Assembly (NCBI GenBank): GCA_902597575.1
Contig: CACJYF010000008.1
Coordinates: 1-42,171, forward strand
Direction of reading: 5' to 3'
DNA from: an uncultured Pelagibacteraceae bacterium
GTDB lineage: Bacteria > Pseudomonadota > Alphaproteobacteria > Pelagibacterales > Pelagibacteraceae
Length of the DNA stretch: 42,171 nt
Within the stretch, counting starts at the first letter, position 1; the number at the start of each line of letters is the position of its first letter. The notes beneath the pieces were generated by a model that had not been told where the DNA came from, searched no databases, and worked only from the letters and a program-made list of their open reading frames with translations. Both the position numbers and the translations under genes were made by a program. Positions 1,230-13,383 of the stretch are shown piece by piece.

Positions 1230-2849
1230 TTACATATTCCCGTATTTAGGGCCACCCCCACCTTCAGGTGTTACCCAAGTGATATTTTGAGAAGGTTCTT
1301 TTATGTCACAAGTTTTACAATGAATACAATTTTGAGAGTTAATAACAAATCTATTAGATCCATTATCCTTTTGAACTTCATAAACGCCTGCTGGACAATA
1401 CCTTTGCGCGGGTTCGTCATATTCATTTAATGTATAGTTAATTGGTAATGACGGATCTTTAAGTTTTAAATGAATAGGTTGATTGTCTACATGGTTTGTG
1501 CCGGTGAGATAAACTGAACTCGTTTTATCAAAAGTAATAACGTTATCTGGCTTAGGATAGTCAATTTTAGGCATTTTATTTGCTGGTTTTAATGTTTGAT
1601 GGTCAGCGTGTTTGTGTTTTAGTGTAAATGGTAATTTTCCTCTAAACAAAATTTGATCGATACCTGTGAAAATAATTCCTAAAATTAAGCCCCAATTAAA
1701 ACTAGGCTTAACATTTCTTGCTTCATAAAGCTCTTTGTATAACCAACTTTTTTTTAATTTTTCCTCAAAAATTGATAGCTCTTTATTATCCTTAATATGG
1801 TCATTAATTGTTTCTGCTGCAATTATTCCACTTTTCATAGCAGTATGAGATCCTTTTATCTTGGGCATATTCAAAGTACCTGCATCACACCCAATCAATA
1901 ATGCTCCAGGCATAAACATTTTTGGCAAACTTTGAAAGCCACCTTCTATTAAAGCTCTAGCGCCATAGGAAATTCTTTTTCCACCCTCAATAATTTTTCT
2001 AATTGCAGGATGCGTCTTGAATCTTTGAAATTCATCGAATGGTGACAAATGAGGATTTTGATAATCCAAACCGATTACATAACCTAAGAATATTTGTTTA
2101 TTTTCTGCATGATAGATAAAACTTCCTCCGTAGGTACTATTATCTAACGGCCAGCCAGCAGTATGCATTACCAAACCTTCTTGGTGATTTTTTTCATCCA
2201 CTTCCCATATCTCTTTAAATCCTATTCCATATTGTTGTGGATCTTTATCTTTATCAAGATTAAATTTTTTAATTAATTGTTTTCCTAAGTGACCTCTGCA
2301 ACCTTCTGCAAAAACAGTAACCTTTCCCAATAAATCGATACCTGGCTCAAAACTATCTTTTTTGTTTCCCTCTTTATCAATACCCATATCTTGAGTTGCT
2401 ACACCTTTTACAGAACCATCATCATTAAATAAAATTTCACTTGCTGGAAATCCAGGGAAAATTTCAACACCAAGCGCTTCTGCTTGTTCTGCGAGCCATC
2501 TACATAAGTTCGCAAGGCTTATAATATAATTCTTATGATTTTTTTGAACTGCTGGTAATAACCATGTTGGCCAGCTTAATGATTTATTTTTTCCTAAAAA
2601 TAAAAATTTTTCTTTGGTAACTTTAGTTTTAATAGGTGAATTCAATTCTTTCCAACCTGGAATTAATTCATCTAAAGCTCTTGTTTCAAATACATTTCCA
2701 CTTAAAATATGGGCACCAATTTCTGATGCTTTTTCTAACAAGCAAATGTTTAGTTCTGAATTTAATTGTTTTAACTTTATAGCTGTAGCTAATCCTGATG
2801 GACCGCCACCTACAATTACTACATCATATTCCATTGTCTCTCTGGACAT
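1230..2849 (-). CDS. Electron transfer flavoprotein-ubiquinone oxidoreductase
   Basis: 539 aa; N-terminal FAD motif VVIVGGGPSGLATAIKL; C-terminal CIHCKTCDIKEPSQNITWVTPEGGGGPKYGNM is the ETF-QO 4Fe-4S signature. Confidence 0.95.
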   Translation of the reverse strand: MSRETMEYDVVIVGGGPSGLATAIKLKQLNSELNICLLEKASEIGAHILSGNVFETRALDELIPGWKELNSPIKTKVTKEKFLFLGKNKSLSWPTWLLPAVQKNHKNYIISLANLCRWLAEQAEALGVEIFPGFPASEILFNDDGSVKGVATQDMGIDKEGNKKDSFEPGIDLLGKVTVFAEGCRGHLGKQLIKKFNLDKDKDPQQYGIGFKEIWEVDEKNHQEGLVMHTAGWPLDNSTYGGSFIYHAENKQIFLGYVIGLDYQNPHLSPFDEFQRFKTHPAIRKIIEGGKRISYGARALIEGGFQSLPKMFMPGALLIGCDAGTLNMPKIKGSHTAMKSGIIAAETINDHIKDNKELSIFEEKLKKSWLYKELYEARNVKPSFNWGLILGIIFTGIDQILFRGKLPFTLKHKHADHQTLKPANKMPKIDYPKPDNVITFDKTSSVYLTGTNHVDNQPIHLKLKDPSLPINYTLNEYDEPAQRYCPAGVYEVQKDNGSNRFVINSQNCIHCKTCDIKEPSQNITWVTPEGGGGPKYGNM

Positions 2850-8732: not shown

Positions 8733-9107
8733 TTATTTAAGTTTACCTTCTTTTCTCATTTGTGCTCGAATTTTTGTTGCAGAGATTTCCTGAATTTCTT
8801 TTGATAATTCAATTTCTTCAATTTTATAACCTACACCTCTTCCATAACAAATATTGGTTATGTTTGGAACTAGCATAACCTTGAAACGTCCCTCAAATTC
8901 CGGATTAAGTCTATCGTCAATACTTTTTTTGACTGTCTTAAAATCAAATGGGTTATCGTCCACTCCTTGAACGTCTCTTATTTGAATACAAACTTGACCA
9001 GTTTTTTTTATTATTTCCTTAAATAAATTATAATGTCCATCATGAAATGGTTGCCATCGTCCTAGCATTTGAGCAGTTGGTTTTTTATTATCCCATTGAT
9101 AGCTCAC
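8733..9107 (-). CDS. Adenylyl/cytidylyl-transferase-like protein (HxGH nucleotidyltransferase)
   Basis: 124 aa; GRWQPFHDGHYNLF (HxGH) and ISATKIRAQ (ISSTxxR-like). Confidence 0.8.
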   Translation of the reverse strand: MSYQWDNKKPTAQMLGRWQPFHDGHYNLFKEIIKKTGQVCIQIRDVQGVDDNPFDFKTVKKSIDDRLNPEFEGRFKVMLVPNITNICYGRGVGYKIEEIELSKEIQEISATKIRAQMRKEGKLK

Positions 9108-9202
9108 TAAGTCTCCTTATTTTCAAATTTTATTAATGTATTATAAATTATTATTTTCTAAAAATACCAATATTTTTTAATTACTTTTTTAGATGTTCAA
9201 AT

Positions 9203-9412
9203 CTATTTAGAGTTACCAGGTAATCCACCACCAAATAATAATTTCTGTCTAATTTCAATTGGATATTTGGATATTTTAATTATTACCTTTTCCAATCTTG
9301 GATATCTTGCACCATACTCATAATGCTGGACAATTAATGATCCATAAATAACCGAAAATATTATTAAAAAAATTAATATCAATATTAAAAGCCATAATGG
9401 AATTTTTAGCAT
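9203..9412 (-). CDS. 69-aa membrane protein homologous to the N-terminus of the ASST-like protein at 10948-12327
   Basis: GSLIVQHYEYGARYPRLEKVIIKISKYPIEIRQKLLFGG aligns with GSLIIHYYEYGPRFPRLQKIAISIASIPINFEKILRFGN; 1-nt overlap with the upstream sulfotransferase gene. Could be functional or a truncated remnant. Confidence 0.7.
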   Translation of the reverse strand: MLKIPLWLLILILIFLIIFSVIYGSLIVQHYEYGARYPRLEKVIIKISKYPIEIRQKLLFGGGLPGNSK

Positions 9413-10380
9413 TAATAGAACATATTTAGTTTTCTATATATATCAACTGCTTTATCAAATAGACGATTGTTGAACTTATCAGTAGTTTTTTTTTTAGATA
9501 TATTAAATCCGTCCAAATTAATTTTATCAATTTCTAAATAATTGTTGATTTCTGTTAGATATAGATTGTCCTTAAGTTTTTCATAACATATTAATTTAAT
9601 GTTTGTATTGTCTTTTTCGTAAAAATTTAAGATATTTTCGTAAAACTTAATCCACTGTTCTATCCAGTAATTAAATTCTAAATTATCAGTAAACAAATTT
9701 GGTTTATACCAAGGTTTATGATTTTGTCCAAATTCGTTATGACCTAGATAATTCATATAACTTAAGATAAAATTGTCTGACTTTTGTAAATTCAAAAAAT
9801 TTTTATGTTGTGAATACAATGAATATGAATGCTGCAGAGGATCCCTAAATGGAATTAAAATTTTTGAATTAGGAAAGCACTTTCTTATTAAATTTATTCT
9901 TTTGAAATTATTGTTATTTTTGCTTATATATTTTTTTCTATTATAAAGTTTTAATATCAATGAAACATAATTAACAAATTCCCTCAAGAAATCCTGACCT
10001 TCATATGCTGTGATGAAAACTTCGTCTAAAGCCTCTGGGCTATCTAGATTATAATATACACCATCTTTGTGGGCTCTAATTTGAGGTTTGGATTTTTTTT
10101 GAAAATAGATTTTAGAATTTAAGTTTACTGAGAATAAAAAAGGCATATCTTTATAAGTTAATGATGCATACTCATCACTGCTGTACAAATAGTTCAAGAT
10201 AGATGTTGTGCCTGATCTTGCTAATCCCGCTATAAAAATGTGTTTTTGTTCGACCACATTTTGAAATTCAGAATTATTTAAATATAAAAGTTTTTCTATT
10301 TCATAAAGGCTTTTATTAACTATTTTATATTTGAAACAAATTTTGTGTAATATTTTTTGTATTAAATTATAATTTTGCAT
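9412..10380 (-). CDS. Sulfotransferase family protein
   Basis: HIFIAGLARSGTTSILNYLYSS (5'-phosphosulfate-binding loop-like) and KILIPFRDPLQHSYSLYSQHKNF (3'-phosphate-binding-like). Confidence 0.88.
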   Translation of the reverse strand: MQNYNLIQKILHKICFKYKIVNKSLYEIEKLLYLNNSEFQNVVEQKHIFIAGLARSGTTSILNYLYSSDEYASLTYKDMPFLFSVNLNSKIYFQKKSKPQIRAHKDGVYYNLDSPEALDEVFITAYEGQDFLREFVNYVSLILKLYNRKKYISKNNNNFKRINLIRKCFPNSKILIPFRDPLQHSYSLYSQHKNFLNLQKSDNFILSYMNYLGHNEFGQNHKPWYKPNLFTDNLEFNYWIEQWIKFYENILNFYEKDNTNIKLICYEKLKDNLYLTEINNYLEIDKINLDGFNISKKKTTDKFNNRLFDKAVDIYRKLNMFY

Positions 10381-10727
10381 ATTAATACTTTTAAGTACTT
10401 GTACAGAAATATAACAATTATTGAAAATAAAAATCCAATTATACTTAATGTAAAATTAATGATGTTTAAAAAATATAAACTCAATAAGTAAAATATTAAT
10501 ACCATTAATATTAATATTACAATAATTTTGAGTGAAACTAAGAATAATTTTTTTGAAATTTTAAATATTAATATTTCTTTTTTTTTATCCGACAGAGAAT
10601 TATCAAAAATATTTGAAAAGAGTTTTTTATAAATGACCAGATTTAAACGTAAAAGCTTAAAAAATTTAAGATACACAAAAATTTCATAACAAATGATTAA
10701 AAATATAGCTAACCCTATTTGGGTCAT
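10362..10727 (-). CDS. Hypothetical membrane protein
   Basis: 121 aa with several hydrophobic segments; coupled to neighbours by a 1-nt (upstream) and 19-nt (downstream) overlap. Confidence 0.6.
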   Translation of the reverse strand: MTQIGLAIFLIICYEIFVYLKFFKLLRLNLVIYKKLFSNIFDNSLSDKKKEILIFKISKKLFLVSLKIIVILILMVLIFYLLSLYFLNIINFTLSIIGFLFSIIVIFLYKYLKVLICKIII

Positions 10728-10954
10728 TACTTTTCTTCTTCGTTGGATTTATCTTGTTTTAAATTTTCTTGTTTTCTTTTATTTATAAATTTTTTTATAG
10801 GAAACCAAAGTATTGCAAATATTGATGCAATAATTGCTATAACAATACCTAACGTAGCGGCTATTAGACCTCCTCCCATACCTGGTCCGACATATGATAG
10901 TGCGTGTGTAAAAAAAAAGGCACTGCCTAATATAATTAAAACTAATTTTAACAT
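10727..10954 (-). CDS. Small membrane protein with YVGPGMGGG motif
   Basis: MLKLVLIILGSAFFFTHALSYVGPGMGGGLIAATLGIVIAIIASIFAILWFPIKKFINKRK: signal-like segment, glycine-rich motif, TM helix, charged tail. Overlaps both neighbours. Confidence 0.7.
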   Translation of the reverse strand: MLKLVLIILGSAFFFTHALSYVGPGMGGGLIAATLGIVIAIIASIFAILWFPIKKFINKRKQENLKQDKSNEEEK

Positions 10955-12327
10955 TTTAGATTTTTAATACTTTCTTTAATATTCTTTATCGAGTCAAGAT
11001 TAGAAATTAATCTTGACCAAGCAATTGGATATATTTTTCCATCACCGGATACATTAACAAATTCCCATTCTAATTGACCCTCACTATCATAAAATAATAT
11101 TCTCCCACTATTAGTTTCTTCCATGATAATTGATCCATTAAAAGAGGTATCAGATAGTCCTTCCGTGGGTGTTTTGAATTTTTTTAATTCCAACTGTTCT
11201 GATAGTAATTTTTTATATTTGTTAGTTTTAAAATTATAAATTAATAATTCAGAAAATTTACTATCTTCCGCCTTTGAATTATTATTGTTAAATATAGAAA
11301 TCTCATGGTCGGAGATGATATCAATGTCATGTTGCTCAAAAAATGGACCTCTAATATAATTTACCAGTTCATTAGTATTCGGTCTAAAATGGATTATTGA
11401 TGAGTTCCTTAATAAACTTAAAAAGATATCACCTTTTTTCCAATAAGGTCCATCATTTAAAACTGGCTGAATATCATTCAAGTGCACTGGATCTCTTGAA
11501 GTATACACATCACTATCACTAAAAATTTTGTTTTCTAAAAGAATAGATGAAACTGATTTTTTATAAATTATATTACCATTCTTTGGATTGATCTTAACTA
11601 TTGAATCATCAGCAAATCTTAAACCACTTCTGAAAATATCGAGATTATTTTTAACATTTGAACTTACACCGTTGGGGGTTCCTGCCACCCAAATGTTATC
11701 TTCATGATCCCTCTCTATTGAGTGATGAAAGTTCATTTCTTTAGTAGACCATAAATCATTTCCACAAATATCAATTTTAAACAAAGGTGAAAACATAACA
11801 TTTTTGGCAATTAAACTCCCATCATCTAATATCAAAGGGTGGCCATATTGAAATCTTTTTTGAGTATTGTCTTTTCCTACCTTGAACTTTTCATAAGTTA
11901 AATCAATATTATGATCATATCTGTGAATAACTTTTAAGTTACTTAAATCAAGAATCTCAACCACTGATTTTTTTTTTTCTCTATCATATCGAGGCAGAAC
12001 TAAAAGTTCTTTTCTTTCAGGATTTATATTTATATTATAAAATTTAAGGTAATCACCCTTATTATTTTTTTTTATTTTGACAATATTTTCAACTTTTTCA
12101 CCGTGTGCTCTTGGTATTTGTTTTAATGGTTCAAGTTTATTTCCAAAACGTAAAATCTTTTCAAAATTTATTGGTATAGAAGCAATTGAAATAGCAATTT
12201 TTTGTAATCTAGGAAATCTTGGACCATACTCATAATAATGAATTATTAATGATCCAAACAAAATAGTTCCTAAGAGTATTAAAGATATTAGGAATACTGC
12301 AACCCAAACTGATATTTTTTTGAACAT
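10948..12327 (-). CDS. Arylsulfotransferase (ASST)-like membrane-anchored protein
   Basis: 459 aa; N-terminal TM anchor, then blade-like repeats with conserved-looking His sites (MNFHHSIERDHEDNIWVAG, RDPVHLNDIQPV, FFEQHDIDII) and C-terminal NSGRILFYDSEGQLEWEFVN. Confidence 0.72.
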   Translation of the reverse strand: MFKKISVWVAVFLISLILLGTILFGSLIIHYYEYGPRFPRLQKIAISIASIPINFEKILRFGNKLEPLKQIPRAHGEKVENIVKIKKNNKGDYLKFYNININPERKELLVLPRYDREKKKSVVEILDLSNLKVIHRYDHNIDLTYEKFKVGKDNTQKRFQYGHPLILDDGSLIAKNVMFSPLFKIDICGNDLWSTKEMNFHHSIERDHEDNIWVAGTPNGVSSNVKNNLDIFRSGLRFADDSIVKINPKNGNIIYKKSVSSILLENKIFSDSDVYTSRDPVHLNDIQPVLNDGPYWKKGDIFLSLLRNSSIIHFRPNTNELVNYIRGPFFEQHDIDIISDHEISIFNNNNSKAEDSKFSELLIYNFKTNKYKKLLSEQLELKKFKTPTEGLSDTSFNGSIIMEETNSGRILFYDSEGQLEWEFVNVSGDGKIYPIAWSRLISNLDSIKNIKESIKNLKC

Positions 12328-12343
12328 AATAATAATTATTATT

Positions 12344-12757
12344 TTATTCTGTATTGATATCTATAAATATTTTATCTGCCCAATCCTTTGCATTTTTTGT
12401 TGTGACTCTAAAATTATATTTTTCTGGCTTAACAAACATCTTATTTGTATCCTCAAATCTTCCTTCATCGATAGTATCCAGCCAAATTATATAATCTGCA
12501 GGGAATAAATTTCTAGCTTCTGGAGTTGGGCAGACAAAATCTGCGACGACATTTTGTCCTTGATTCTTATATTCCTCAGCTTTGCTCCACATTCTTTTTG
12601 CTTGTCTAACCCTACCTTCTGCAGAAAAATCCCAATCATTTGCTTCTTTCCGCACTTCATCAGCATTAAGCCATTTAGCTTTTAACAAAGGCACTAAATG
12701 AGAGGCTAAAGTTGTTTTGCCTGCACCGGGCAAACCCATTATTAATATAATTTTCAT
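12344..12757 (-). CDS. Adenylylsulfate (APS) kinase-like P-loop protein
   Basis: MKIILIMGLPGAGKTTLASHL P-loop; LNADEVR...WDFSAEGRVRQAKRMWSKAEEYKNQGQNVVADFVCPTPEARNLF resembles APS kinase. ATG at 12757 forms TAATG with the upstream gene. Confidence 0.75.
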   Translation of the reverse strand: MKIILIMGLPGAGKTTLASHLVPLLKAKWLNADEVRKEANDWDFSAEGRVRQAKRMWSKAEEYKNQGQNVVADFVCPTPEARNLFPADYIIWLDTIDEGRFEDTNKMFVKPEKYNFRVTTKNAKDWADKIFIDINTE

Positions 12758-13383
12758 TATTTTACTTTGTACAAACCCAACCAAGCATTGACATCTTTGC
12801 TAGCAATATAATCAGACTTAAAAAACTCTATTTCACTCCAAAGATTTGTTTTATTTAATTCCTGTATTTTTTTATCAAATCCATAATTTTTGTATATACC
12901 CTCATTAATAGTGAAACAAATTAGACCACCTTTTTTAGTTATTCTTAAGAATTCATCTAACGCATTTGGTTTTACGTGGCCAAAAGTAAAAGTGCCTACA
13001 CAAAAAATTGCATCATAAGTATTATCTTTTAAATTGATTGGTTTGTTTAAATCAGTCCTAAGCAGTTTTTTATATAAATTTAACGGAATAGTGTTCAGTA
13101 ATTTTTGTGATAGATCTGCGCCATGAAAGTTTTTGAAACCGAATTTTTTTAGTTCTGAGCCTACTAAACCAGTTCCACAGCCAGCGTCAAAGATCAAAGC
13201 ATCTTTATTTTTCTCATATTTTAGGAAAGTATTAACAGTTTCTTTTGGTCCTGTATAATTCCAATCAACCATATCTTTATTATATTTGTCATTTTCACCC
13301 CACTCATCGTAGTAATCCATTACCTCTTTTGTGGTTTTCAATTTATAAATTGGTACTTTGTTTCCTACGTCTTTTTGTGCCAT
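12757..13383 (-). CDS. Class I SAM-dependent methyltransferase
   Basis: ALIFDAGCGTGLVGSELKKFGFKNFHGADLSQKLL; CVGTFTFGHV; EFLRITKKGGLICFTINE. Confidence 0.9.
   Translation of the reverse strand: MAQKDVGNKVPIYKLKTTKEVMDYYDEWGENDKYNKDMVDWNYTGPKETVNTFLKYEKNKDALIFDAGCGTGLVGSELKKFGFKNFHGADLSQKLLNTIPLNLYKKLLRTDLNKPINLKDNTYDAIFCVGTFTFGHVKPNALDEFLRITKKGGLICFTINEGIYKNYGFDKKIQELNKTNLWSEIEFFKSDYIASKDVNAWLGLYKVK

Follow-up and report, generated by a model that had tools for sequence, protein, structure and literature searches.

The window, by which we denote the whole stretch of 42,171 nucleotides analysed here, belongs to a SAR11 genome that is available as a 63%-complete assembly of 40 contigs. Between positions 9102 and 12364 it harbors a cassette of about 3.26 kb whose five genes lie on one strand (minus) in the following order: a gene for a full-length ASST-like protein of 459 aa (10948–12327), one for a 75-aa membrane protein with a YVGPG motif (10727–10954), one for a 121-aa membrane protein without a Pfam or NCBIfam family (10362–10727), one for a PAPS-type sulfotransferase of 322 aa (Sulfotransfer_3; 9412–10380) and an open reading frame (ORF) of 69 aa (P0001; 9203–9412), which is the final gene of the insert and ends 102 bp from its edge. 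The genes for the 75-aa and 121-aa proteins are the conserved second and third genes of the cassette. The flanking genes, likewise on the minus strand, are a nucleotidyltransferase-like gene with a weak CTP_transf_like match (8733–9107), outside the insert, and a gene for an AAA_33/APS_kinase-like small kinase (12344–12784), just outside it. In the closest relatives these two genes adjoin, or the kinase gene is absent. Since six close relatives whose flanks are collinear on both sides lack the 3.26-kb block at this site, insertion is the simplest reading. The synonymous divergence from the nearest relative without the block is about 0.22–0.23; hence the insertion, if it took place after the split, dates back less than about 0.11 substitutions per site along the lineage. 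The kinase and nucleotidyltransferase genes adjoin in many relatives, and gene content varies both at their junction and in the neighboring stretch from enoyl-CoA hydratase to DUF4864, with various unmatched ORFs in L133 and L138–L146.

The protein heading the cassette had been labeled ASST-like in the first-pass annotation, and correctly so: it matches PF14269 (Arylsulfotran_2) with 111.6 bits against a curated cut-off of 27 (E 6e-32), and its AlphaFold model (pLDDT 87) adopts a propeller fold, and the conserved histidines are present. Across the ASST-like family H333 is invariant, and H201, H202, H282 and N284 are at least 90% conserved. The model places a transmembrane (TM) helix at residues 2–34, a neck helix at 39–60, a low-confidence linker at about 63–91 and the beta-propeller from about residue 94 onwards.

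The 69-aa frame runs intact from its ATG start at 9412 to its TAG stop at 9203 without an internal stop, and shares base 9412 with the stop of the sulfotransferase gene in the sequence TAATG, so that the two genes overlap by a single nucleotide. Probably, the protein is made as a short inner-membrane peptide by way of this coupling to the sulfotransferase. Downstream of its stop, an A+T-rich spacer of 95 nt (9108–9202) leads to the next gene and contains no recognizable ASST remnant; translation of 9101–9206 in three frames likewise yielded no ASST similarity, confirming that the catalytic region is absent after the 69-aa frame. AlphaFold predicts two helices, the same TM helix and amphipathic neck helix as in the full-length ASST-like protein, and according to the models the short protein breaks off where the flexible linker begins, without reaching the beta-propeller. 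As modeled, the stump would therefore comprise the complete anchor module and nothing else. A random cut would, by length alone, land in this linker of about 30 residues with a chance of about 6–7%, so that the predicted position of the stop is a suggestive, albeit not strong, hint that the frame end is not random.

Several lines of evidence connect this short protein to the ASST-like enzyme. BLASTP aligned it to residues 4–65 of the window ASST-like protein with 24 of 62 residues identical and 43 of 62 similar (47 bits, E 3e-12), and the earlier count by eye of about 20 matches in 39 residues is exact on the two strings that were compared. In 5,000 shuffles that kept TM and neck composition separate, the null scores averaged 31.9 and did not exceed 70, compared to an observed alignment score of 150 (z 18.7), and the neck part alone reached a z of 19.7 against composition shuffles. 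The next-best ORF of the window scored 39, compared to 113 for the true pair. An anchor profile built from other ASST-like proteins, with the 69-aa protein left out, recovered the latter with an E of 2.4e-13, and the only two whole-genome matches to P0002 were P0002 itself and the 69-aa ORF. In a tree of the anchors only, the window ASST is the sister of the 69-aa copy (bootstrap 95), and the EYGxRxPRL neck sequence is common to these two proteins only. With the Arylsulfotran_2 anchors in general the short protein shares the TM helix, the neck motif and the invariant neck proline, and it retains several core neck residues (G24, L26, Y31, G34, R36, L40, K42 and P51), its closest match being the enzyme at the head of its own cassette. 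While it thus possesses the family-specific N-terminal anchor and neck, as judged by profile and alignment, it lacks the catalytic beta-propeller together with all conserved histidines (H202, H282 and H333 of the full protein), and at 69 aa it gives no Pfam match. BLASTP, the shuffles and the independent profile hence agree with the first-pass view that this gene duplicates only the N-terminal anchor and neck of the ASST-like protein.

We then compared the two anchors with respect to their age and rate of change. They are 61% identical in DNA, and among their matched residues 15 of 24 codons are identical, where 12 would be expected with synonymous sites randomised. Since synonymous sites are near saturation, the split of the two copies is old, while the cassette is young at its site. 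A recent in-place duplication is ruled out by the same two observations. Over the full time since the split a neutral frame would rarely have stayed open, which argues that selection at the protein level probably acted on the ancestor of the short copy during most of its existence, when it was presumably still a complete enzyme. For the time since the insertion, a neutral frame of 69 codons would still be open with a probability of 0.11 in the oldest case up to 1 (mean 0.38; substitutions only, indels ignored), and the open frame is accordingly no evidence of function. The short copy has a branch length of 1.45 in the anchor tree, about six times that of the window ASST (0.24). Relative-rate counts of the short copy versus its sister were 19 versus 3 with the nearest outgroup L028 (p 0.001) and 15 versus 3 with L170 (p 0.008), and most other outgroups pointed in the same direction without significance. 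As these counts rest on about 60 sites, a single nearest outgroup and outgroups that are not independent, they provide weak evidence, which suggests relaxed constraint on the short copy.

To learn whether the anchor also stands alone elsewhere, as the first-pass annotation had proposed to check, we ran the anchor profile at E ≤ 1e-4 on three overlapping samples with one genome per species, drawn from the order (398 genomes), the class (387) and the genus (399) and amounting to about 1,000 distinct genomes. The profile found 31 anchors fused to frames of about 440–520 codons, the fused form being present in 30 genomes other than that of the window, and one stand-alone anchor, the window ORF itself. 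A direct search with the 69-aa protein in 60 relatives gave no stand-alone match. Weaker profile hits turned out to be TM-only segments of larger frames or to contain several stops, and one anchor hit, in L175 (G857), proved not to be an ASST. Regarding a phage origin, neither tblastn of the short protein against phages nor a scan of viral contigs revealed a relative.

The cassette itself (9412–12327 in the window) recurs in a minority of SAR11 genomes and in a metagenome-assembled genome labeled Micavibrio (L026; loci L026–L044 and L162–L174), and its locations in different genomes are unrelated, which indicates that it moves as a unit. Including the window, a sulfotransferase of the same family is adjacent at 29 of the 35 ASST-like loci with flanks, mostly together with both small membrane proteins, and two of the other six loci end at a contig edge. 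Plasmids contained only three distant ASSTs with about 24–29% identity. At three loci (L044, L171 and L172) a full-length ASST follows 3–4 nt behind the sulfotransferase, that is, in the slot which the 69-aa ORF occupies in the window, and L026 carries two tandem ASSTs. At L174, a C-terminal stump of 65 aa from a second ASST (1579–1776, plus strand) has an intact, distant ASST on one side and the 75-aa gene on the other; it is 60–72% identical to many members of the ASST family and would represent either an independent trimmed copy or a gene replacement. Like the 69-aa ORF, it is short and open, corresponds to one end of an ASST and shares its cassette with a complete ASST; it differs in that the C-terminal end was kept and the 75-aa gene follows directly, whereas the window stump is the N-terminal end behind the sulfotransferase. 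Second and trimmed ASST copies hence belong to the history of this cassette. The 121-aa gene of L031 (2319–2684, plus strand) aligns over its full length in one frame while its open frame begins only at 2475; it seems to be interrupted by an in-frame stop, which indicates that cassette genes do decay in this group. At L029 (7609–7791, minus strand), whose contig also contains L025, the sulfotransferase is followed by a frame of 60 aa that appears by eye to be a shortened acyltransferase and is possibly another gene remnant at a cassette edge.

Considering these observations, the 69-aa ORF is in our judgment probably a truncated paralog, namely what is left of the 5′ end of a second ASST-like gene that had diverged from the first. 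Relative to its intact homolog the frame is shortened; since the lost catalytic part has left no trace, we infer the truncation itself, and equally an originally full-length copy, the time and manner of the cut, and the lack of a function. The cassette ancestor probably carried two ASST genes, one at its head and one at its tail. The tail copy would have been cut after about 65–69 codons, either by a deletion or by a transfer or recombination breakpoint inside the gene, and in the latter case the same event may have brought the cassette to its present site between the genes for the kinase and the nucleotidyltransferase. Both the coupled start codon and the open frame survived in the stump, which is probably decaying and whose peptide would probably reside in the inner membrane with little or no function. 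Against a truncated paralog count the intact frame, the translation-coupled start, the stop in the linker and the several core neck residues that were kept, as well as the report that SAR11 genomes contain almost no pseudogenes or recent duplications (PMC4285135). The first-pass annotation had offered a degenerate paralog trimmed by genome reduction. Its first half is favored by the uniqueness of the short form among about 1,000 genomes, by the full ASSTs in the same slot of three other loci and by the trimmed ASST of L174, while genome reduction would be only a candidate cause; given the recent insertion of the cassette, a transfer breakpoint could account for the cut just as well.

Such a breakpoint would make the stump the edge of transferred DNA rather than a product of decay in this lineage, a sub-case of the truncated paralog in which the cause and timing of the cut differ and which we regard as possible, albeit tentatively. 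In this sub-case, the donor would have carried a complete ASST behind its sulfotransferase, and the recombination breakpoint would have cut this ASST, in line with the location of the 69-aa ORF at the very end of the insert and with the donor-like arrangement at L044, L171 and L172, where an ASST directly follows the sulfotransferase. However, the 95–102 bp between the stop of the 69-aa ORF and the insert edge are recognizably neither ASST nor recipient sequence, and the breakpoint thus did not fall exactly in the ASST gene.

It is unlikely that the ORF is a retained microprotein, that is, an anchor-only protein that is made and used, for example in mixed assemblies of necks or TM helices that include the full-length enzyme or the 75-aa and 121-aa proteins and tune assembly or the number of active heads. 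Its intact frame with a coupled start, the predicted two-helix architecture that equals the anchor of the enzyme and stops cleanly in the linker, and a neck sequence shared only with the local enzyme, as expected if the necks meet, would all fit this idea, as would the gene-poor and pseudogene-poor nature of the clade (PMC4285135). On the other hand, about 1,000 genomes contained no second example although 30 other genomes have the fused form, cassettes elsewhere are kept without the short ORF, the short copy appears to evolve faster than its sister, and its open frame is expected often enough by chance. Occurrence in this genome only had been named beforehand as what would speak against a microprotein, and among these genomes the stand-alone form is indeed confined to that of the window rather than conserved across lineages. 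Of the proposed mixed membrane complexes, what stands is the intact, coupled frame ending in the linker; other positive evidence did not emerge. More doubtful still is the specific version in which the short protein is a functional paralog peculiar to this lineage and reduced to the anchor, which binds the full-length enzyme by its TM and neck helices and regulates it; if true, truncation within a transferred sulfation cassette would have given rise to a microprotein with a dominant-negative or assembly role. That two membrane anchors of similar composition merely resemble each other by chance, as hydrophobic A+T-rich anchors do in general, is ruled out for practical purposes by the shuffles (neck z 19.7) and the independent profile, together with the bootstrap of 95.

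As a truncated paralog, the 69-aa ORF is a small gene stump that deserves attention mainly for its occurrence in SAR11, whose genomes are reported to contain hardly any pseudogenes or recent duplications, and it forms the border of a mobile four-gene cassette. The cassette is of more interest than the ORF and looks like a two-step sulfation system that has spread both within SAR11, where a minority of genomes carry it, and outside this clade. In the literature searched we found neither a description of this four-gene cassette nor a paper joining arylsulfotransferase with Pelagibacter. Its working part would be the other four genes, encoding a PAPS-type sulfotransferase of the cytosol, the two small membrane proteins and an ASST-like propeller that is anchored in the membrane and probably periplasmic. 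By analogy to caprazamycin sulfation, these four genes would serve a two-step transfer of a sulfuryl group through the inner membrane.

Sulfation of caprazamycins first needs a PAPS-dependent sulfotransferase, which makes an aryl sulfate donor. The PAPS-independent sulfotransferase of this synthesis is Cpz4, and the pathway therewith pairs the same two enzyme types as the cassette. The caprazamycin system is not known to contain a membrane cassette of this kind. Since the SAR11 cassette adds two small membrane proteins to both enzyme types, a relay that starts from PAPS in the cytosol and ends on an acceptor in the periplasm can be proposed and tested, and in this respect the cassette resembles a two-step sulfation relay of a PAPS enzyme and a periplasmic ASST. 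A sequence search of the PDB returned only irrelevant weak matches. On the structural level, Cpz4 (PDB 9kf6 and 9kf4), reviewed as the AST-type enzyme making sulfated caprazamycins (PMC13426309), showed the top query-normalised fold similarity to the full-length window ASST-like protein among the hits listed (TM-score 0.54 for 9kf6), at a sequence identity of 11%. The active site of AssT includes His252, His356, Asn358 and His436 (PMC13426309), and His356, Asn358 and His436 find candidate counterparts in the conserved His-x-Asn motif (H282 and N284) and H333 of the window ASST.
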